The notes under the pieces are model-generated. The model was not told the origin of the DNA. It worked only from the letters and a program-made list of their open reading frames with translations, and made no database searches. From Endomicrobium sp. (GTDB lineage: Bacteria; Elusimicrobiota; Endomicrobiia; Endomicrobiales; Endomicrobiaceae), in assembly GCA_031278115.1 (NCBI GenBank), contig JAITKZ010000016.1, positions 1-16,521 on the forward strand: a DNA stretch of 16,521 nucleotides. Reading direction: 5' to 3'. Made by a program: the position numbers and the translations under genes. How positions within the stretch are numbered: position 1 is the first letter of the stretch; each line of letters begins with the position of its first letter. This document shows positions 2,728-12,303 of the stretch, in pieces.

Positions 2728-3270
2728 ATGCTTTGTTTAAAATTTGTTAAACAATCAAGTGGGCAAGCCCTTGTTGAAGCAGCTTTAATTGCTCTGCTGA
2801 TTATACTTTTTCTTTTAGTGATTTTATGGTTTGCCCGTATAATGCTTACCTGGCAGCAAATTTCTACAGCAGCTCGTTATGGAGCGGATCTTTTATCATA
2901 CACTCCTTTCAGTGTAAAGTACATAGAGAGCGACATAAAAGATTATCTTTGTGCTGCAAATACAATAGGAAGAACTATTGAGCCAAGAAAACTTAACATA
3001 AAAATTGAAGAAAACGATTACAAACCTATTAAATATGATTTTGATATTACAAATTTTTCAAGTTTTGCAGTTTTAAATCCTTATAGTTTTCTGAACATGT
3101 TAAAGGATTTTATTGCGTGTTTTAACAAGAAGTCTTCTGTTGAAATAACTTATACTTACAATATTCCAAAGATATTGAGGATAATTGGAAATGATAGTAT
3201 AAAAATAACAGCGCGTGCGTCAGTCTTGTCAGGTACAGGAAGTATTGGGACTTTGCAACGGCAAAAATAA
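2728..3270 (+). CDS. tadE: TadE-like minor pseudopilin
   Basis: The 180-residue product begins with a class III prepilin signal: a short basic leader, Gly12, then QALVEAALI with Glu at mature position +5. A hydrophobic helix runs to about residue 38. This is the TadE signature; TadE-like pseudopilins are processed by the prepilin peptidase and needed for Flp pilus biogenesis. The remainder is probably periplasmic and shows nothing catalytic. It is the first gene of the pilus cluster and precedes flp by 22 bases. The ATG at 2728 is the only start that leaves the signal intact. The nearest purine-rich sequence (AGAGAGAAAAG, 2706-2716) is rather far upstream, so initiation looks weak. It could be called TadF or TadG-like, but its size and the signal followed by one helix fit TadE best. 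Confidence 0.8.
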   Translation: MLCLKFVKQSSGQALVEAALIALLIILFLLVILWFARIMLTWQQISTAARYGADLLSYTPFSVKYIESDIKDYLCAANTIGRTIEPRKLNIKIEENDYKPIKYDFDITNFSSFAVLNPYSFLNMLKDFIACFNKKSSVEITYTYNIPKILRIIGNDSIKITARASVLSGTGSIGTLQRQK

Positions 3271-3276
3271 ATTTCA

Positions 3277-3285
3277 GGGGAGGGG
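3277..3285 (+). promoter_or_regulatory. Strong ribosome binding site of flp
   Basis: GGGGAGGGG lies seven bases before the ATG at 3293. It is by far the most G-rich ribosome binding site in the pilus cluster and decides the flp start, because the longer in-frame extension upstream lacks any pilin signal. It fits the need to make much more major pilin than machine components, which is an inference. Confidence 0.7.
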
Positions 3286-3292
3286 CGACATT

Positions 3293-3463
3293 ATGAATTT
3301 TGCTTGGATTAAAAGAAATAAAGGACAGGGGATGGTTGAATATATTCTTATTGTGGCTGTTATTGTAGGAATAGTTTTTATCGCATATAAAGCTTTTGGA
3401 AAGAAAATAAAAGGTCAGTTTGAAAAAGCCACGAAAACCATTCAGTCGGCGGATAAAGCATAA
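3293..3463 (+). CDS. flp: Flp-type major pilin
   Basis: This small 56-residue protein has the Flp/Fap pilin build. A basic leader ends at Gly11, followed by QGMVEYILI with the Glu-Tyr pair at mature positions +5/+6. A single hydrophobic helix follows to about residue 36, then a short Lys-rich tail. Cleavage after Gly11 would give a mature pilin of about 45 residues. Flp pilins polymerise from the inner membrane into the thin Tad pilus used for surface adhesion. The ATG at 3293 is chosen over a longer in-frame reading from 3215 because of the strong ribosome binding site at 3277-3285 and because the leader then has normal length. The gene sits between the TadE-like pseudopilin and cpaB, four bases from the latter. 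The prepilin peptidase that must cut it is not in the window. Confidence 0.9.
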   Translation: MNFAWIKRNKGQGMVEYILIVAVIVGIVFIAYKAFGKKIKGQFEKATKTIQSADKA

Positions 3464-3467
3464 CATC

Positions 3468-4301
3468 ATGAGAAAATCTATAATAGCTGCTCTTATTTGC
3501 GCGGCGGTTTCCGCCGGATTAGCCTATTTATTTTTGTCTGATTTAGAAATTAAGTACAAAACTATGGCGGAACCTGTGAAAGTTATTGTTGCATGCCAAA
3601 GGATACCACAAGGTGTTCTAATACAGTCTGACATGCTTGTTGAAAAAATGGTTCCTAAGGAATATATACAACCAAAAGTATTTCAAGATTTAAGAGAATT
3701 GTTTACAAAAGATGGCTCTGCAAGTTATATATCTTTGAATACAATTGAGGAAAACGAACAAATACTTTCTACTAAAGTTTTAAAAGCTAATCAAGATACA
3801 GGAGTAAGCAATTTAATCCCCGATGGTAAAAAAGCTCTATCTCTATCATTTAACTGTGAATCATTGGGGATTCTTACTCCAGGCAGCAGAATAGATATTT
3901 TTGCAATAGTTGAATACATTGATAAGGGAAAAGAAATACAAGACGCTGTGTTTTCTGTTGCACAAAATGTTTTAGTTTTGGCTGTTGGCGGAAACTGTAT
4001 AGGCAGTGGTAAAAAATCAGAGCAAGACGACGATTCAAATAATTTAAATTACATAACAATTGCAGTAACTATTGAAGAAACTCAAAAGATTCTCATAGCC
4101 TGTGAAAAAGGAAGTTTAAAGTATGTAATAAGACCTGTCGGTGACTTAGACATCTCTGATATAAAGCCCTTGAAACTTTCATCTATAGTAAAAGATGTTT
4201 CAAAAATATATCCAAATTGCGAAAAAGATTTGAAAACGACAAGCCAAAGAGAAGTTTTGGAAATAATAAACAGATACACGAACATTAATAAACAAAAATA
4301 A
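3468..4301 (+). CDS. cpaB: Flp pilus assembly protein CpaB/RcpC
   Basis: The 277-residue product has an N-terminal membrane anchor (about residues 4-23) and then a SAF-like beta-clip segment (VKVIVACQRIPQGVLIQSDM, 37-56). The family's conserved middle block follows, with IPDGKKALSL at 118-127 and the PGSRIDIFAIVE stretch at 138-149, matching the 'PGdrVDV' region of CpaB/RcpC. These proteins are anchored in the inner membrane, lie in the periplasm and are thought to stabilise or gate the Tad secretin. The ATG at 3468 is preferred over an upstream TTG because it starts directly at the membrane anchor and lies four bases after the flp stop. There is no clear Shine-Dalgarno sequence, so translation is probably coupled to flp. 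The secretin gene (rcpA/cpaC) that usually follows is missing here; the ATPase gene follows instead. Confidence 0.87.
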   Translation: MRKSIIAALICAAVSAGLAYLFLSDLEIKYKTMAEPVKVIVACQRIPQGVLIQSDMLVEKMVPKEYIQPKVFQDLRELFTKDGSASYISLNTIEENEQILSTKVLKANQDTGVSNLIPDGKKALSLSFNCESLGILTPGSRIDIFAIVEYIDKGKEIQDAVFSVAQNVLVLAVGGNCIGSGKKSEQDDDSNNLNYITIAVTIEETQKILIACEKGSLKYVIRPVGDLDISDIKPLKLSSIVKDVSKIYPNCEKDLKTTSQREVLEIINRYTNINKQK

Positions 4302-4307
4302 GAGGTT

Positions 4308-6305
4308 ATGATGTTTGCCATAGCATCAAGCTGTAGTTTATTCCAAAGACATTTGTTGGCTTATGGATTATCTTGCATATCGTCAAATAAAAAAGAATCT
4401 TGCGTTGTTCTTGATTTTTCTATACCTGATCCTGATTCTTTTTGGTCTTTATACGGGAATAGAGTTAAGTATATTGAGGATATCTTACAGGTTTTATCAG
4501 GAATAACTCCTAAAATTTTAAGAGGATATTTATCGCCTATAGGATTGAACCCTGTGCTCGCTTTTAGAGATACAAAACTAAAACATGCTGATATTGACAG
4601 AATTTTATACTTAGCAACAGCTCTTAAAGAAAGTTTTAAATATGTTTTTGTTATTCTACCCGATGAAATAGATGAAAATCTTTTTAAACTTGTACAAGAA
4701 TCCGAATGTGTTTTGTTTCCTTATACGAGTGACGCAATATCCGTAAAAAACGCAATTTTTATTTTAAAAGAGTATTGTTGCGATATTTATGAAACAAGTT
4801 TTGCAGCTTTAAAGCTTAACTTTGGATATGATTTTAATTCTGATAATATTTTACGCGAGTCAAAAATCTTAAGATATAATATTGAGGCAGACTTTAATTA
4901 CCGTGTTCAAGAACAGATTCTATATCCCCACTTTTCTTACAAAGATAGATCAAATAATTATGTTTTGTCTTTACACAAGGTATTAGAGATTTTTGATAAA
5001 TTGCAACAAGTAAAAGTTAAGAGTTTTTCTTTAGACAATTATTTCCAAAATGAAAATACTTATGGACAATTGCGAGATGATATTCATAAATCTCTTGTTG
5101 AAGAGATGAAAAAATATATTGATGAAAATGACAATAGTAAGCTAAAAAAATTAACAAAAAACAAAATAAGTGAAATTTTATCTAAAAGAAATCTTATTTT
5201 GCCAAGAGATATTTTGTCCCGGCTTTATAAAGAACTTTGTAATGATGTCGCGGGACTTGGAGTATTGGAAGATTTAATAGAAGATTCTTCTGTTACTGAG
5301 ATAATGGTTAACGGACATAATAATATATATGTTGAAAGAAATGGAAAGATAACTAGAACTAAAATTTCTTTTCCAGATGAAAAACGCTTGAAAACTGTTA
5401 TAGACAGAATAGTTTCTAATGTAGGCAGGCATATTGACGAATCTTCGCCTATTGTTGACGCAAGGCTTAAAGACGGTTCACGCGTTAATGTTGTTGTAAA
5501 ACCCATATCATTAGATGGCTCTATAGTTACAATAAGAAAATTTTTAAAAAATAAACTTTCAATGGAGTCTTTAGTTTCTGCAGGTAGCCTAAACGAAGCC
5601 ATGCTTGAATTTTTAAAAACTGCAGTTTTGTTAAAAAAGAATATTATTATTTCTGGCGGTACAGGTACTGGAAAAACTACTCTTTTAAATGCCATATCAT
5701 CTTTTATACCTAAAGAAGAAAGACTTGTTACTATTGAAGATTCTGCTGAACTTCAGCTTCAGCAGGAACATGTTGTAAGGCTTGAGAGTAGACCAAAATC
5801 AACTGAAGGTACAGGTGAGATTAGTATAAGACGATTAGTAGTAAATGCTTTAAGAATGCGTCCTGACAGAATAATTGTTGGAGAGTGTCGTTCCGGCGAA
5901 GCTCTTGATATGATTCAAGCAATGTCCACAGGACATGAGGGCAGTCTTACTACATTACATGCCAATTCTTCTTATGACGCTGTTTCAAGACTTACAACTA
6001 TGGCGTTAATGTCAGGTATGGATTTGCCGGAGAAATCTATTGTTTCTCAGATAGCGTCTGCAATAAACGTTATAGTACAGCTATCCCGTTATACCGACGG
6101 CTCAAGAAAAATATCTTCAATATCAGTAATAGATAAAACTAACGATGAACGATTATATGAGATTAAGCCTGTTTTCCAATTTGATTTGAAGAGTTTTGAC
6201 GACGGCGTTCAAAAGGGAGAATTTAGTTTTACAGGTTATGTGCCGGATTTTATACAAAATGCATTTCAAAAAGGTATAAAGTTAAATACTGGAATATTTA
6301 AATGA
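4308..6305 (+). CDS. tadA: TadZ-like/TadA fusion: Tad pilus motor ATPase with degenerate MinD-fold N-terminus
   Basis: This is one continuous 665-residue frame. From about residue 270 it is a typical TadA/CpaF secretion ATPase: Walker A GGTGTGKT at 450-457, Walker B RIIVGECR at 521-528 with Glu526, and the His box TGHEGSLTTLHAN at 541-553. It hydrolyses ATP at the inner membrane to drive Flp pilus assembly. Residues 1 to about 235 are extra. They have the strand and helix order of TadZ/CpaE MinD-like proteins: 'CVVLDFSIPDPDSFW' (32-46) as the 'vDlD' strand, 'YVFVILPDE' (112-120), 'CVLFPYTSDAISVKNA' (134-149) and a closing helix near 220-235. The P-loop position reads SSCSLFQRHL, with no Lys-Gly motif. 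TadZ normally places the machine in the cell; a fused, non-ATP-binding version is inferred. AGAGG at 4301-4305 fits the second ATG (4311) better than the first. The stop overlaps tadB. Confidence 0.9.
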   Translation: MMFAIASSCSLFQRHLLAYGLSCISSNKKESCVVLDFSIPDPDSFWSLYGNRVKYIEDILQVLSGITPKILRGYLSPIGLNPVLAFRDTKLKHADIDRILYLATALKESFKYVFVILPDEIDENLFKLVQESECVLFPYTSDAISVKNAIFILKEYCCDIYETSFAALKLNFGYDFNSDNILRESKILRYNIEADFNYRVQEQILYPHFSYKDRSNNYVLSLHKVLEIFDKLQQVKVKSFSLDNYFQNENTYGQLRDDIHKSLVEEMKKYIDENDNSKLKKLTKNKISEILSKRNLILPRDILSRLYKELCNDVAGLGVLEDLIEDSSVTEIMVNGHNNIYVERNGKITRTKISFPDEKRLKTVIDRIVSNVGRHIDESSPIVDARLKDGSRVNVVVKPISLDGSIVTIRKFLKNKLSMESLVSAGSLNEAMLEFLKTAVLLKKNIIISGGTGTGKTTLLNAISSFIPKEERLVTIEDSAELQLQQEHVVRLESRPKSTEGTGEISIRRLVVNALRMRPDRIIVGECRSGEALDMIQAMSTGHEGSLTTLHANSSYDAVSRLTTMALMSGMDLPEKSIVSQIASAINVIVQLSRYTDGSRKISSISVIDKTNDERLYEIKPVFQFDLKSFDDGVQKGEFSFTGYVPDFIQNAFQKGIKLNTGIFK

Positions 6306-7108
6306 TGAAAATAATCTTTCTTTTTTCTTTTGCTTTTTTTACATTTTGCTTTACATATTTTTTTATAAACAAGTTAAAAGTTAAAATAAATAAGAAAAAG
6401 CCTTTTGACTTAAAAAATCTACCGAAAAATAAAAAAAGAGTTTTGGTTTCTTTTATTGTTTTTCTTGGTTTAAGTTTACTTTTGCAAAATATTATTTTTG
6501 CGTTAATTTCTTGCATTTTATACTGCTATTTTGATTGGTATATACAGGACAAAAAAAGGCGCAAAAAAGAAGCTTTAATAGACAAACAGGTTATTGAAGC
6601 CTTAAATATTATAAAAAGTGCAGTTAGGGCAGGGCAATCATTGCAGAATGCTATTTTTACGACTAAGAATGAATTGAAATACCCTATAAAAGGCGAATTT
6701 GAAAAAATATCGGAAAGGTTAGCTTTTGGAATGAATTTTGACAAAGTTTTAGAAGAATCTTCTAAAAATGCTATAAGCAAAGAATTTAAACTTATGATAG
6801 ATGTTATCAGAGTGTCAAAAGATGCGGGCTCAAGTTTAAGTGATATTTTTGACAGAATATCTGAGTCTACAATTCAAAGAATTAATGTCCAATCAAAAAT
6901 GACAGCTTTAACTGCTCAAGGAAGAATATCCGGTAATATAGTGAGCTTTATTCCTTTTGTAGTTATGTTAATAATGTATATGATTGAACCTGAAATGATG
7001 GAATGTTTGTTTATTACTTTGATTGGAAATATTTTACTTCTTATAGTTATTGTTATGGTTATTACAGGGTCCGTTGTAATAAGAAAAATGACGGAGATTG
7101 ATTTCTAA
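6302..7108 (+). CDS. tadB: TadB inner-membrane platform protein
   Basis: The 268-residue product has the TadB/type II secretion F arrangement. There is one N-terminal helix (about 3-22), a pair of hydrophobic segments at 47-60 and 63-80, a cytoplasmic helical domain from about 85 to 205, and two C-terminal membrane helices near 212-228 and 238-260. The family features 'VIEALNIIKSAVRAGQSLQNAI' (split here at 97-118) and 'LMIDVIRVSKDAGSSLSDIFDRIS' (164-187) are clear. With TadC it forms the membrane platform on which the TadA motor acts. The ATG overlaps the tadA stop in an ATGA arrangement, and a second ATG follows directly at 6305, so coupled translation is likely. TadB and TadC are paralogous; this one is assigned TadB from its gene order and two-plus-two helix layout. 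Confidence 0.85.
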   Translation: MMKIIFLFSFAFFTFCFTYFFINKLKVKINKKKPFDLKNLPKNKKRVLVSFIVFLGLSLLLQNIIFALISCILYCYFDWYIQDKKRRKKEALIDKQVIEALNIIKSAVRAGQSLQNAIFTTKNELKYPIKGEFEKISERLAFGMNFDKVLEESSKNAISKEFKLMIDVIRVSKDAGSSLSDIFDRISESTIQRINVQSKMTALTAQGRISGNIVSFIPFVVMLIMYMIEPEMMECLFITLIGNILLLIVIVMVITGSVVIRKMTEIDF

Positions 7109-7984
7109 TGATAACATTATTATGTTTTTTTGGTTTTTTGTTGTATTTTTTGCGGTTTGTTACATAGCTTCAAATGTAAAGAAAGTGAAATTTGAATTTA
7201 AGATTAAAAATACTATAGAAAAAATGAAAACAGGGAATTTTATAACAAATTACTTTTTTATCATTGTTGATAAAATAGCTTGTTTAGTAGAAAGGATTAA
7301 ATATAGGAAATTTGTTTATTTCGTTGAAAAAAACGATGCAACTTTAAAATTACTAGGCAAAAAATATGAAAATATAACTCCATATAAATTTTTTGCAATA
7401 CAAATACTTGCTATGTTTGCAGGTATGTCATTTATCGCGTTTTTTGTAAGTTTGCAGACAATAGTTATTCTTTCTACAGGACTATTCTTCTTCTACTTAC
7501 CTGTTTTAAAGATTAAGGAAGAATTGAAAAAGAGGAAAGAATCTATACTTAAGCAATTGCCGGAAATGGCTGACTTGCTTTCGGTTATGCTTGCTGCAGG
7601 GCTTGATTTTTATGGCGCATCCAGAAAGGTTGTTAGTATAATGTCAGGCTCTTTGATTGATGAGCTAAAAAATACTTTGGCAAAAATTTCTTTAGGTTAT
7701 GATAAAAAAACTGCTTTTAAAGAAATGGCAGACAACACAGGTGTTGAGCAAGCATATTCTTTTGTCACTGCGATAAATATGGCTTTAGAATCAGGTACAG
7801 AGATGTCTGATATTTTAAAGAGACTATCTAGCTCATTGCGAAATGAGAGTTTTTCGTATTCGGAAAAAAAGCTCAAGAAGCACCTGTAAAGATGCTTATT
7901 CCATTAGTGTTGTTAATATTTCCAACAATTTTTATAGTTATATTTGGACCAATTGCTATAAGTTTTATTAAGAATGGATTTTAG
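7098..7984 (+). CDS. tadC: TadC inner-membrane platform protein, reading frame broken by a shift near 7865-7871
   Basis: The zero frame runs from TTG 7098 (overlapping tadB by 11 bases) or ATG 7122 to TAA 7887-7889. It has an N-terminal helix, two membrane helices near 7380-7500, and the type II secretion F domain 'QLPEMADLLSVMLAAGLDFYGA'-like block and 'ALESGTEMSDILKRLS'. It then ends abruptly in a Lys-rich tail without the last helix. In the -1 frame, from 7871, the canonical TadC ending appears (AQEAPVKMLIPLVLLIFPTI, then FIVIFGPIAI) and stops at TAG 7982-7984. The join falls at seven A's (7864-7870), read as GAA AAA AAG. The restored protein is about 287-295 residues, normal for TadC. Because the tail is intact and well kept, the gene may be functional through frameshifting or slippage. 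A pseudogene or a one-base sequence error are the alternatives. No Shine-Dalgarno sequence clearly decides between the two starts. Confidence 0.82.
7865..7897 (+). promoter_or_regulatory. Candidate -1 frameshift site in tadC
   Basis: Bases 7865-7871 read A AAA AAG in the zero frame, the same heptamer used by E. coli dnaX and several IS elements. The -1 frame has a TGA at 7844-7846 and the zero frame stops at 7887-7889, so any shift must occur in the 40 bases between them; this is the only slippery heptamer there. Six bases after the heptamer, AAGCA (7878-7882) can pair with TGCTT (7893-7897), a weak five-pair hairpin. No convincing upstream anti-Shine-Dalgarno stimulator is seen. Programmed use is a hypothesis. 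Confidence 0.45.
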
Positions 7985-8016: not shown

Positions 8017-9033
8017 TTAATTTTCAGTTATTTTAACTATGGTCCCGACAACTTTGTTGTCTTTATTTATAGAAACTGCAGAAATTTTATAACTTCCTGA
8101 TGACCCAATAACTTTGTTTCCGGGTCTTTCGTTTGCTTTTATTATAACCTTAACTATATTGGGATCTTTTACAGCTTCGAGTAGATGCTGTTTGTTTTTC
8201 GTAAGATTGGTTTTAATTATTTTTCCTGTAGAATCATGAGAATATACAACATCATTTGACGAGTTTAATAGTATAAACGCCAGATTGTCATTAATTGACG
8301 CTGCATGATAATGTTCAATAATTTTAATTAGGCTTTCGTTATCTCCTTCAAGTTTTTCTATTTTCTTTGAGATTTTATCTCTTTCTGTTGTAAAAATATC
8401 TGTTATTTCATTGTATTTTTCGTTTATTGCATTTCCTGATTTATTTTCAAGGATCTTTTTTATTCTATTGAAAGGAAAAAGTATTAGGAGTTTTGAAAAA
8501 AAGTAAAAAATGATAATAATTAACATCGCTACGGCTGAAGCTATAGAGTAATACTTTATTTGCCAATATTTGGCAATTTCTTTGCTTTTTTGAACGGAAA
8601 CTATGCACATCAGAGTATAATCATTTGATACGGGTTCTGATAACAGAAAAAAATTATCATCAGGCATTTCTTGAATAAGTTCTTTTCTATGTATAACGGC
8701 TTCATTATAAATATTGGTGTGTTTTTCAGTGTTCCATTCATTTATGTTATTGTGTATAATCACCTTGCTATTTTTATCAAGTATAAAACAAGATGTTATA
8801 TTTGGGGCGGTTGCTAGTAATTCAATGTTTGAAAGAAGGCTGATGTCATCGGAGTTTTGAATTGCCTTGTTTAAATATGGAATTGTTGTTATTAATGCAG
8901 TTTGAGCTTTTTCCAATGTAAGATTTTGTAAATTTTTTGCTTTATCTTTTGAAAGCAAATTTACTATCGGATAAAAAATTCCGCAGATAAAAACAAAGCC
9001 ACAGAAAGATAAGAATATTATATTCTTCTTCAT
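8017..9033 (-). CDS. Membrane sensor-like protein (extracytoplasmic sensor domain, coiled coil, no recognised output domain)
   Basis: I do not recognise a named family. From the ATG at 9033 the 338-residue product has an N-terminal membrane helix (about 4-27) and an extracytoplasmic domain of about 140 residues. The segment ITSCFILDKNSKVIIHNN resembles the central strand of Cache/CHASE-type sensors. A second membrane helix follows (about 183-207), then a charged, probably coiled-coil linker and a C-terminal PAS-like or small alpha/beta domain of about 100 residues. There is no histidine kinase, GGDEF or methyl-accepting domain. In-frame ATG 9051 and TTG 9099 are alternative starts. TATAAT (9040-9045, minus strand) just before the ATG at 9033 would give a leaderless mRNA. 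The gene is convergent with tadC, 32 bases apart, and divergent from the DUF192 gene, so it has its own transcription. A regulatory link to the pilus is possible but unproven. Confidence 0.75.
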   Translation of the reverse strand: MKKNIIFLSFCGFVFICGIFYPIVNLLSKDKAKNLQNLTLEKAQTALITTIPYLNKAIQNSDDISLLSNIELLATAPNITSCFILDKNSKVIIHNNINEWNTEKHTNIYNEAVIHRKELIQEMPDDNFFLLSEPVSNDYTLMCIVSVQKSKEIAKYWQIKYYSIASAVAMLIIIIFYFFSKLLILFPFNRIKKILENKSGNAINEKYNEITDIFTTERDKISKKIEKLEGDNESLIKIIEHYHAASINDNLAFILLNSSNDVVYSHDSTGKIIKTNLTKNKQHLLEAVKDPNIVKVIIKANERPGNKVIGSSGSYKISAVSINKDNKVVGTIVKITEN

Positions 9034-9045: not shown

Positions 9046-9169
9046 CAACATTTTTTTGTGAAGAGCTTGCCTTTTGAGTTTATATTTCTTACGTTTCAAC
9101 TCACGTACCTATTTTTTGAATGAAATCTAGTGCTGTATAAGCATGTTTAGAATTTTGATGGAGTAACTT

Positions 9170-9597: not shown

Positions 9598-11067
9598 ATG
9601 GAAAAAAAAGGACAAGAGCAAGTGGCAACTCCTATAGAGCAAATAATTCAACAAAGAAAACAAAAAGCAAAAGACTTTACAGCAGTGGGAATAAATCCTT
9701 ATCCCGCTAAATATTTTTTGGATAAAAATATTGCTGATATACAAAAAGAGTTTGCATCTCTTGAAAAAGAACAAGTCTCAGGTGTAAAAGTTAAAGCTGC
9801 AGGAAGAGTAATGACTTATAGGAACATGGGTAAAGCTGCTTTTCTTGATATAAGAGACGGATACTCCAAGATTCAGATATATGTCAGAGCTGATAAAGTT
9901 GGAGCAGAAGGATATAAACTTTTCAAAAATATGGTTGATACATCCGACTTTATTGCCGTTGAAGGTATTCCTTTTAGAACAAAAACAAACGAACTGAGCA
10001 TAATGGTAGAAAAATGGACAATGCTTACTAAGGCGGTTAGACCTCTCCCAGAGAAATGGCATGGTCTTAAAGATACAGAGACAAGATACAGACAAAGATA
10101 TTTAGATTTGATAGCCAATACTGAAGTTAAAAATGTTTTTGTGAAAAGAAGTATGGTTATTTCCGCTATAAGACATAAACTTGAAGAATTAGGTTTTATG
10201 GAAGTTGAAACTCCAATGTTGCAGTCTTTGGCAGGTGGAGCTAATGCAAGACCTTTTGTAACACACCACAATGCTTTGGATATAGATTTATTTTTAAGAA
10301 TCGCTCCAGAACTCTTCTTGAAGCGTTTAGTTGTCGGTGGAATGGATAGAGTTTTTGAAATAGGTAGAAACTTTAGAAACGAAGGCATTGATAAAAATCA
10401 CAATTCAGAGTTTACAATGTTGGAGCTTTATCAAGCGTATGCTGATTACAATGATATGATGGATTTGACTGAAACATTGATTAAAGCTGCTGCAGAGAAA
10501 GTAAATCCTGGACTTAAACTTGAGTTTAAAAGAGCAAAAATGTTTGATTTGATAAAAGAATATACTGGGCTTGATTTATTGCCTTATGTTGAAAGTGGAA
10601 AAATGTTTGAGCAGGTAAAACATTTTAATTTAGATTTGACTAAAAACGCTACAGACAAGAAGATTTTAGATCAGGTTTTTGATGAGAAAGTTATACCAAA
10701 TTTAAAAAGTCCAACTTTCATTATAGACTATCCCGCTATTTATTCTCCCCTTTCAAAGGTCAAATTTGATCAACCAGAAATAGCCGAACGGCTTGAGCTT
10801 TACATAAATGGAATGGAAATAGGAAACGCATATTCCGAGCTTAATGATCCTTACTTGCAAAGAACAAGGTTTGCTCAACAGATGGAAGCCAAAAAGAAAG
10901 GTGATGATGAAGTTATGCCTTATGATGAAGATTTCATTTTTGCTTTAGAGCAGGGGCTTCCTCCAACGGGAGGTTTGGGTATAGGCATAGACAGGCTTGT
11001 TATGGTGTTGACTGGTGTGGAATCTATAAGAGAAGTCATAACTTTTCCAGCTATGAGACCAGAGTAA
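9598..11067 (+). CDS. lysS: Lysyl-tRNA synthetase, class II
   Basis: The 489-residue product is full length for bacterial class II LysRS, which charges tRNA-Lys with lysine in the cytoplasm. An N-terminal OB-fold anticodon-binding domain covers about residues 60-145. The catalytic core begins near 165 with '[10 protein letters not shown]'. Motif 1 includes '[11 protein letters not shown]' (199-209). Motif 2 is the region '[19 protein letters not shown]' (251-269). Motif 3, '[15 protein letters not shown]' (459-473), is followed by the typical 'FPAMRPE' C-terminus. It stands first behind the promoter at 9510-9538 and is six bases from lolC, so it probably leads a lysS-lolC-lolD transcript. Nothing is missing or unusual in the active site. 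The ATG at 9598 is the only start giving a normal N-terminus. Confidence 0.97.
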
Positions 11068-11073
11068 AGTTTT

Positions 11074-12303
11074 ATGAGTGCAATGTCAGTTGAGTTTTTT
11101 ATAGCGGTAAGATATTTAAAAGCAAGAAGAAAAGCTTTTTTTTCTTTGCTTACTACTTTTATTGCCGTAGGAGGCACGGCTTTGGGGGTTGCTTCTCTTG
11201 TCATAACGCTTGCGGTTATGAGCGGTTTTCAAAGTGATATAAGAAATAAAATTTTAGGTATGCAACCACATATACTGGTAACAAGAAGCGATGGGGAATC
11301 TTTTGAGGATTATATTTCTGTAGAAGATAAAATAAAAACTAATAAAAACGTTGCAAGTGTGTTACCGTTTATATATAAGCAGGGTATTGTAAGAGGTATT
11401 GATTCTTCTTCAACAGCTGGCATAATAATAAAAGCTATAGATTATGCCAAAGAAGACAAAATTTTAAATCTTTCAAAACAGATTATTGTTTCAGATGTTA
11501 AATTTAACCGTGAAAATATTGGCAAGAAATCAATAATATTGGGGTGTGAGCTTGCAAAAAATATCTCTGCAGATGCGGGTAATGAAGTTGTTTTGATGTT
11601 TCCCACAAGTTTGGGAAGTATTCCTACAATGTATAAGTTTAAAGTTTCTGCAGTAATACAGTCTGGAATGTATGACTTTGATTCTTCTTTGGGATTTATA
11701 GATTTAAAAGAGGGGCAAAACTTATTTTCAATGCCTGATTCTGTTACTGGGCTTGATATACACACGACTAATTTTGAGAAGGCGTCAGTAACTGCAGCCG
11801 AACTTCAAAAAGATTTGTCTTATCCTTACAAAGCAAAAGCATGGTTTGATATGAATAAAAATCTTTTTTCGGCGTTAAAGCTTGAAAAAATAATGATGTT
11901 TCTTATTTTGGGGCTTATAATAATTGTTGCGGCTTTTAATGTTATTTCCAATCTTTTGCTTCTTAGCGTTGAGAAGTCAAAAGAAATAGGGATAATGTCT
12001 GCTATGGGGTTTTCAAATTATTCTATTTCAAAAATATTTTTTTACGAAGGTCTTATTATTGGTTCATTAGGAACAGTACTTGGGATAATTTCTGGGGTTT
12101 TTATAAGTTTTGCATTAAAATATCTTGATATATTTAAGCTTCCCAAAGGCGTTTATTATGTTGATAGACTTCCAGTTTCTATAATTCCTTTGGATATATT
12201 GACAGTGGCTTTAAGTGCTTTTGTTATATCTGTATTGGCAGGTCTTTATCCTGCGCGACAGGTTGCGAAACTAGATCCTCTTGAAGCTATAAGATATGGT
12301 TAG
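11074..12303 (+). CDS. lolC: Lipoprotein-releasing ABC transporter permease, LolC/LolE (LolF) type
   Basis: The 409-residue product has the LolC/E build. There is a first membrane helix (about 22-48) after the typical 'FFIAVRYLKARRKAFFSLLTT'-like N-terminus (split here, 8-28). A large periplasmic MacB-like domain follows (about 50-265), then three C-terminal membrane helices in the FtsX domain and the ending 'ARQVAKLDPLEAIRYG' (394-409). With LolD it extracts mature lipoproteins from the inner membrane for transfer to LolA. Only one permease gene is present beside lolD, whereas E. coli has lolC and lolE. This suggests either a homodimeric, LolF-like transporter or a second permease elsewhere. 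It lies six bases after lysS and 21 before lolD. No clear Shine-Dalgarno sequence is seen, so translation may depend on lysS. Confidence 0.92.
   Translation: MSAMSVEFFIAVRYLKARRKAFFSLLTTFIAVGGTALGVASLVITLAVMSGFQSDIRNKILGMQPHILVTRSDGESFEDYISVEDKIKTNKNVASVLPFIYKQGIVRGIDSSSTAGIIIKAIDYAKEDKILNLSKQIIVSDVKFNRENIGKKSIILGCELAKNISADAGNEVVLMFPTSLGSIPTMYKFKVSAVIQSGMYDFDSSLGFIDLKEGQNLFSMPDSVTGLDIHTTNFEKASVTAAELQKDLSYPYKAKAWFDMNKNLFSALKLEKIMMFLILGLIIIVAAFNVISNLLLLSVEKSKEIGIMSAMGFSNYSISKIFFYEGLIIGSLGTVLGIISGVFISFALKYLDIFKLPKGVYYVDRLPVSIIPLDILTVALSAFVISVLAGLYPARQVAKLDPLEAIRYG

Follow-up and report, generated by a model that had tools for sequence, protein, structure and literature searches.

The tad locus and its intact genes

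The stretch of DNA analysed here (the window) comprises 16,521 nucleotides of an Endomicrobium sp. contig (JAITKZ010000016.1) and matches the Endomicrobium MAG locus L001 in synteny; homologues of its proteins likewise carry the name Endomicrobium sp. Its tad genes follow one another in the order TadE-like, Flp-type pilin, CpaB, TadA, TadB and TadC, and among them tadC alone is broken. Family membership of the last gene is indicated by a T2SSF domain (PF00482, 35 bits) adjoining tadB and tadA. A syntenic relative, G012, is 90–93% identical to the window. The tad genes and the features of tadC are the following:

2728..4301, plus strand: TadE-like, Flp-type pilin and CpaB/RcpC genes, intact
4308..6305, plus strand: tadA (T2SSE ATPase), intact
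6302..7108, plus strand: tadB, intact
7108..7167, plus strand: frame from the natural tadC start ATG, ending after 19 codons
7125..7131, plus strand: T7 run, first frame break (T8 in G012, G018 and G001)
7122..7889, plus strand: body of tadC in the zero frame, with the T2SSF domain (PF00482), matching relatives 3′ of the T7 run
7864..7870, plus strand: A7 run, second frame break (A8 in G012, A9 in G001, interrupted EKK/QKK codons in G018)
7865..7871, plus strand: A_AAA_AAG heptamer, in phase, a by-product of the shortened Lys-Lys codon run
7871..7984, plus strand: −1 frame, conserved TadC C-terminal tail of 37 amino acids and TAG

A minus-strand frame (8017–9033), without a Pfam match, converges on tadC and is stop-free over 338 aligned codons in G012, G018 and G001. 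A scan of viral contigs found no relative.

The break at the A run before the last helix

An earlier, sequence-only reading of this DNA had described tadC as split at an in-phase A_AAA_AAG heptamer at 7865–7871, and its coordinates are confirmed on the sequence. The zero frame ends with the stop TAA 7887–7889, while the −1 frame is open after TGA 7844–7846 up to TAG 7982–7984. As that reading had also held, translation in the −1 frame from 7871 yields the canonical last helix of TadC, a hydrophobic stretch of 37 amino acids (AQEAPVKMLIPLVLLIFPTIFIVIFGPIAISFIKNGF). A hairpin had been proposed 3′ of the heptamer; with pseudoknot-free folding z-scores of −1.06 (60 nt) and −0.01 (90 nt) it is not notable, and folding with upstream sequence included gives z = −0.94 over 102 nt.

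The heptamer itself is nothing special, reading as a Glu/Gln-Lys-Lys codon run minus one A. The site codes for Glu/Gln-Lys-Lys, with an unbroken A8 in G012, and the loss of one A from GAA AAA AAA G leaves A_AAA_AAG in phase automatically. In-phase heptamers of the form XXXYYYZ (Y = A or T) are not rare, numbering 81 in the window's 15 reading frames, in which A_AAA_AAG stands in phase three times (5633, 7865 and 8461). By hand count over L003–L032 and L034, with four Lys-Arg loci left out, an unbroken A run of at least 8 occupies the site in 16 of 27 intact EKK/QKK loci; the expectation from codon use in the window is ~0.46 for GAA AAA AAA (0.41 for CAA), and 16/27 gives p = 0.18.

The break at the T run near the start

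The sequence-only reading had placed the start of tadC at TTG 7098. This assignment is wrong, as the start of the relatives aligns with ATG 7108. This codon overlaps the tadB stop at 7106–7108 (TAATG) and is aligned with the starts in G012, G018, G001 and the proteins P0002–P0004. The frame from ATG 7108 stops after 19 codons because the T run at 7125–7131 is one base short. Consequently, the zero frame agrees with the relatives only 3′ of the T run, and tadC carries two one-base contractions. The contraction from T8 to T7 (7108–7131), by which the natural start frame is lost, was absent from the earlier account.

We note that three TadC relatives (P0008, P0009 and P0013) lack the usual N-terminus, their start lying inside the gene; in these, the T-rich start may be broken too, or a contig may end there.

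tadC in related genomes

Across 83 genomes of the order, a tadC match was found in 58 and none in 25, some of which are perhaps incomplete. The best match is uninterrupted in 52 of the 83 and has internal stops in six (G013, G019, G024, G034, G042 and G044). The site of the A run is crossed in a single frame in all 30 genomes with a returned locus (L003–L032 alone, of the 58 genomes with a match). The programmed shift suggested by the sequence-only reading therefore fails the comparison with relatives that the same reading had set as its refuting test, and in which tadC is continuous in 30/30 loci and the two-frame layout occurs in 0/30. Eighteen further loci were fetched by place; the tail pattern is present in four (L034, L038, L048 and L049), and the remaining 14 are decayed or too diverged to show it.

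Remnants of tadC with several stops lie at L038 (G024), L042 (G042) and L045 (G044), and the tail of the L038 remnant is still recognisable. These look like later stages of decay within the same order, and the distribution over the 83 genomes (52 uninterrupted, six with stops, 25 without a match) indicates that tadC has been lost or has decayed repeatedly.

Among 40 homologous proteins, 36 extend to the tail, and two, P0001 and P0002, terminate where the shifted frame does (LKKHL). P0001 is the closest protein (96% identical) and comes from a different contig of 4059 bases, for which a TadB search returned no separate entry. Its first residue is an internal V, encoded by GTG in the window, and it has 10 amino-acid differences from the window, some of them at otherwise conserved columns. 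Its start and end would fit both breaks being shared, of which the protein reveals the second alone. P0002 (84% identical, on a 155-kb contig) has Ser where Pro is nearly invariant. Its near-twin P0003, which differs at 5 aligned positions before the break, is whole, and the opposite states of the two could reflect either a second contraction or a reversion. The changes at conserved positions in P0001 and P0002 are weak hints of decay in shifted alleles.

P0005, which ends in QKKDH on a 1962-base contig, was considered as a third shifted allele and dropped, since the contig end explains its terminus equally well. P0023 ends earlier than the run and was left out of the shifted-at-run count. P0010 has an internal gap of ~50 residues and an intact tail.

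Comparison with the background of run changes

Between the window and G012 there are two frame-breaking coding indels, both in tadC; all other small indels either keep the frame or fall 5′ of where their gene naturally starts. Relative to G018 and G001 as well as G012, tadC lacks one base at each of the two sites. Six coding A/T runs of 8 are present in the syntenic part of G012, and two of them, both in tadC, are one base shorter in the window. The other four keep their length, three being interrupted by substitutions and one unbroken (in lolC, 11136–11143). With the count limited to ORFs of at least 100 amino acids, two of four runs of 8 are shortened. Between G012 and G018, runs of 8 keep their length in 22/22 and 24/24 cases with either side as reference, counts that cover largely the same places from both sides and include interrupted runs. 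Relative to this stability, Fisher's p is 0.034–0.040 for 2/6 and 0.016–0.018 for 2/4, which is modest evidence because the runs were treated as independent. To this modest degree, the shortened runs favour a cause specific to tadC over general miscounting.

The background of broken genes was taken from ~360 kb of G012 and ~350 kb of G018 (L057 was left out because it overlaps L051). Here, 4/83 and 3/81 orthologues were flagged, of which 3 and 1, respectively, were judged to be real shifts; the other three are single matches interrupted by one stop, or a tandem copy. A single one of the shifts falls at a run, where a run of 7 has gained a base, and runs of 7 changed in 1/87 cases from G012 to G018 and in 0/82 in the reverse direction. 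When ORFs of relatives were compared with the window, 7/32 were flagged: three correspond to tadC; the other four, in ilvE or DUF192, have stops within one match, and we read them as over-long start calls. A T run at 9051–9057 is one base short relative to G018; it lies 5′ of ATG 9033, where the minus-strand gene starts, and was left out of the coding count for this reason.

Substitution pattern

With changes polarised by G018 as outgroup, the window branch of tadC carries 16 synonymous and 22 non-synonymous changes; for the G012 branch the figures are 17 and 19 (Fisher p = 0.82). In the remaining 14 genes they are 271/216 on the window branch and 294/195 on the G012 branch (p = 0.13 against tadC on the window branch), and the other tad genes are alike on both (88/72 and 90/71). 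The aligned stretches of tadC are stop-free, and the 37-codon tail is unchanged on the window branch. No relaxed constraint on tadC was thus detected on this branch, where changes are few and where relaxation after a recent break would not be visible. Hence either the break is recent, or slippage partly bypasses it, or the runs are miscounted in the contig.

A probable early stage of decay

In sum, we consider it probable that tadC was recently broken by two one-base homopolymer contractions and is at an early stage of pseudogenisation. One contraction would have struck the T run near the start of the gene, and the other the A run that covers the conserved Lys-Lys codons preceding the last helix. 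The simplest route to both would be replication slippage at what are the two longest runs of tadC, in an Endomicrobium lineage that may no longer strictly need the gene. Contraction of runs by replication slippage is a usual first step of pseudogenes in AT-rich symbionts, and one-base run changes relative to intact close relatives, the mark of a homopolymer pseudogene, are found at both sites. Since close relatives carry tadC whole, the pattern speaks for early decay of an ordinary gene and not for a built-in frameshift switch. We infer that the contig is right at both runs, and loss of the last helix would probably inactivate the platform protein. Of the four options left by the sequence-only reading, a fresh indel is the best supported, with the second contraction found at the start of tadC.

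Loss of mismatch repair was considered as a cause and is unsupported: MutS and MutL are uninterrupted in 7/7 related genomes tested, and consequently no mutator state is indicated.

An alternative that we regard as unlikely is that RNA polymerase or the ribosome slips on T7 and A7, so that some full-length TadC is made and the allele is tolerated. The unrelaxed substitution pattern and the presence of this A-run break in P0001 and P0002 as well would agree with such buffering, as would the precedents described in excerpts on Blochmannia (PMC3017870) and on an E. coli 8A run minus one base (PMC3812077). However, the natural product would need two shifts (unless ATG 7122 is the start) at runs of only 7, the two-frame layout is not conserved, and the alterations of P0001 and P0002 at otherwise conserved positions hint weakly at decay. 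The fuller version, in which double slippage keeps tadC alive while the shifted A run persists in the lineages of the window and P0001 and re-arises in P0002, is more doubtful still. If true, slippage rescue would be the Endomicrobium counterpart of the slippage-buffered genes of insect symbionts, extending the known cases to a further symbiont group and to a pilus platform protein. A sequence or assembly error, in which both runs are miscounted and tadC is intact, carries about the same low probability as slippage buffering. Both lesions are one-base homopolymer losses, a classic type of error, and tadC is without other decay. Set against this, no frame is broken relative to G012 at two runs of 8 (A8 at 9602–9609 and T8 at 11136–11143) or at any of the window's 17 other runs of 7 (of the 17, two lie inside tadC and one, 9051–9057, lies 5′ of a gene). 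However, just two unbroken runs of 8 bear on correct counting, since the window has interruptions in most of the other long G012 runs. P0001, from its other contig and with its 10 amino-acid differences, ends in the same shifted way, which argues further against error.

Two regulatory explanations are very improbable. Programmed −1 ribosomal frameshifting at A_AAA_AAG, setting the amount of complete TadC, would draw on a canonical heptamer that is in phase and has the correct frame overlap. Yet the layout is shared by none of the 30 loci, P0001 and P0002 are shifted while P0003 is intact, no notable structure lies 3′ of the heptamer, and slippery heptamers abound in the window. Nor are unbroken runs of at least 8 A at the site significantly in excess of codon-use expectation, and a second break lies at the start of the gene. 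Phase variation, by which the Tad pilus would be switched reversibly on and off via both runs, could account for P0002 and P0003 being near-identical and in opposite states. It is opposed by the stable run lengths of G012 and G018 and by the uninterrupted MutS and MutL of the relatives; moreover, a contingency locus would be expected to have runs longer than 8.

Under the preferred reading of early decay, the window would capture an apparent first step in the loss of a Tad pilus gene in a termite-gut symbiont, with the neighbouring tad genes intact. It also holds a warning: in an AT-rich genome, an in-phase slippery heptamer is to be expected wherever a run of lysine codons loses one base.

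Relation to known systems

A_AAA_AAG of the dnaX type is known from programmed frameshifting. The tadC site shares the heptamer and its phase with this type and differs from it in having neither a conserved layout nor notable structure, and in the second break elsewhere in the gene. A full-text literature search found nothing on Endomicrobium with slippage, and nothing combining tadC, frameshift and homopolymer.

Excerpts of PMC3812077 describe an M.HaeIII gene in E. coli in which an 8A run minus one A is bypassed at basal expression. The kind of lesion and the run length are those of tadC; in contrast, the M.HaeIII case, as described there, concerns a laboratory gene with one break, and its bypass was measured. 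In Blochmannia, frameshifted genes with poly-A/T tracts are kept without rate increase, and erfK and ytfM show independent shifts and/or reversion, according to excerpts of PMC3017870. As far as these go, tadC is similar in combining an AT-rich symbiont, a short run indel, the rest of the gene in frame and no rate increase, and in independent events and/or reversion across related lineages. It differs in having two shortened runs, both of 7, whereas the excerpts stress tracts of at least 9, and in being known here from DNA.

A further parallel lies within the genus. Excerpts of PMC8809381 report a near-complete tad system in two Endomicrobium genomes and many pseudogenes in a similar tad region of Endomicrobium trichonymphae Rs-D17, so that, as far as these excerpts go, decay at this locus has been described before. 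The genus and the locus losing function are the same in both cases; unlike Rs-D17 as described there, the window has tadC alone broken among its tad genes. What we describe is thus most likely decay of a known kind, in a feature more damaged than the sequence-only reading had held.
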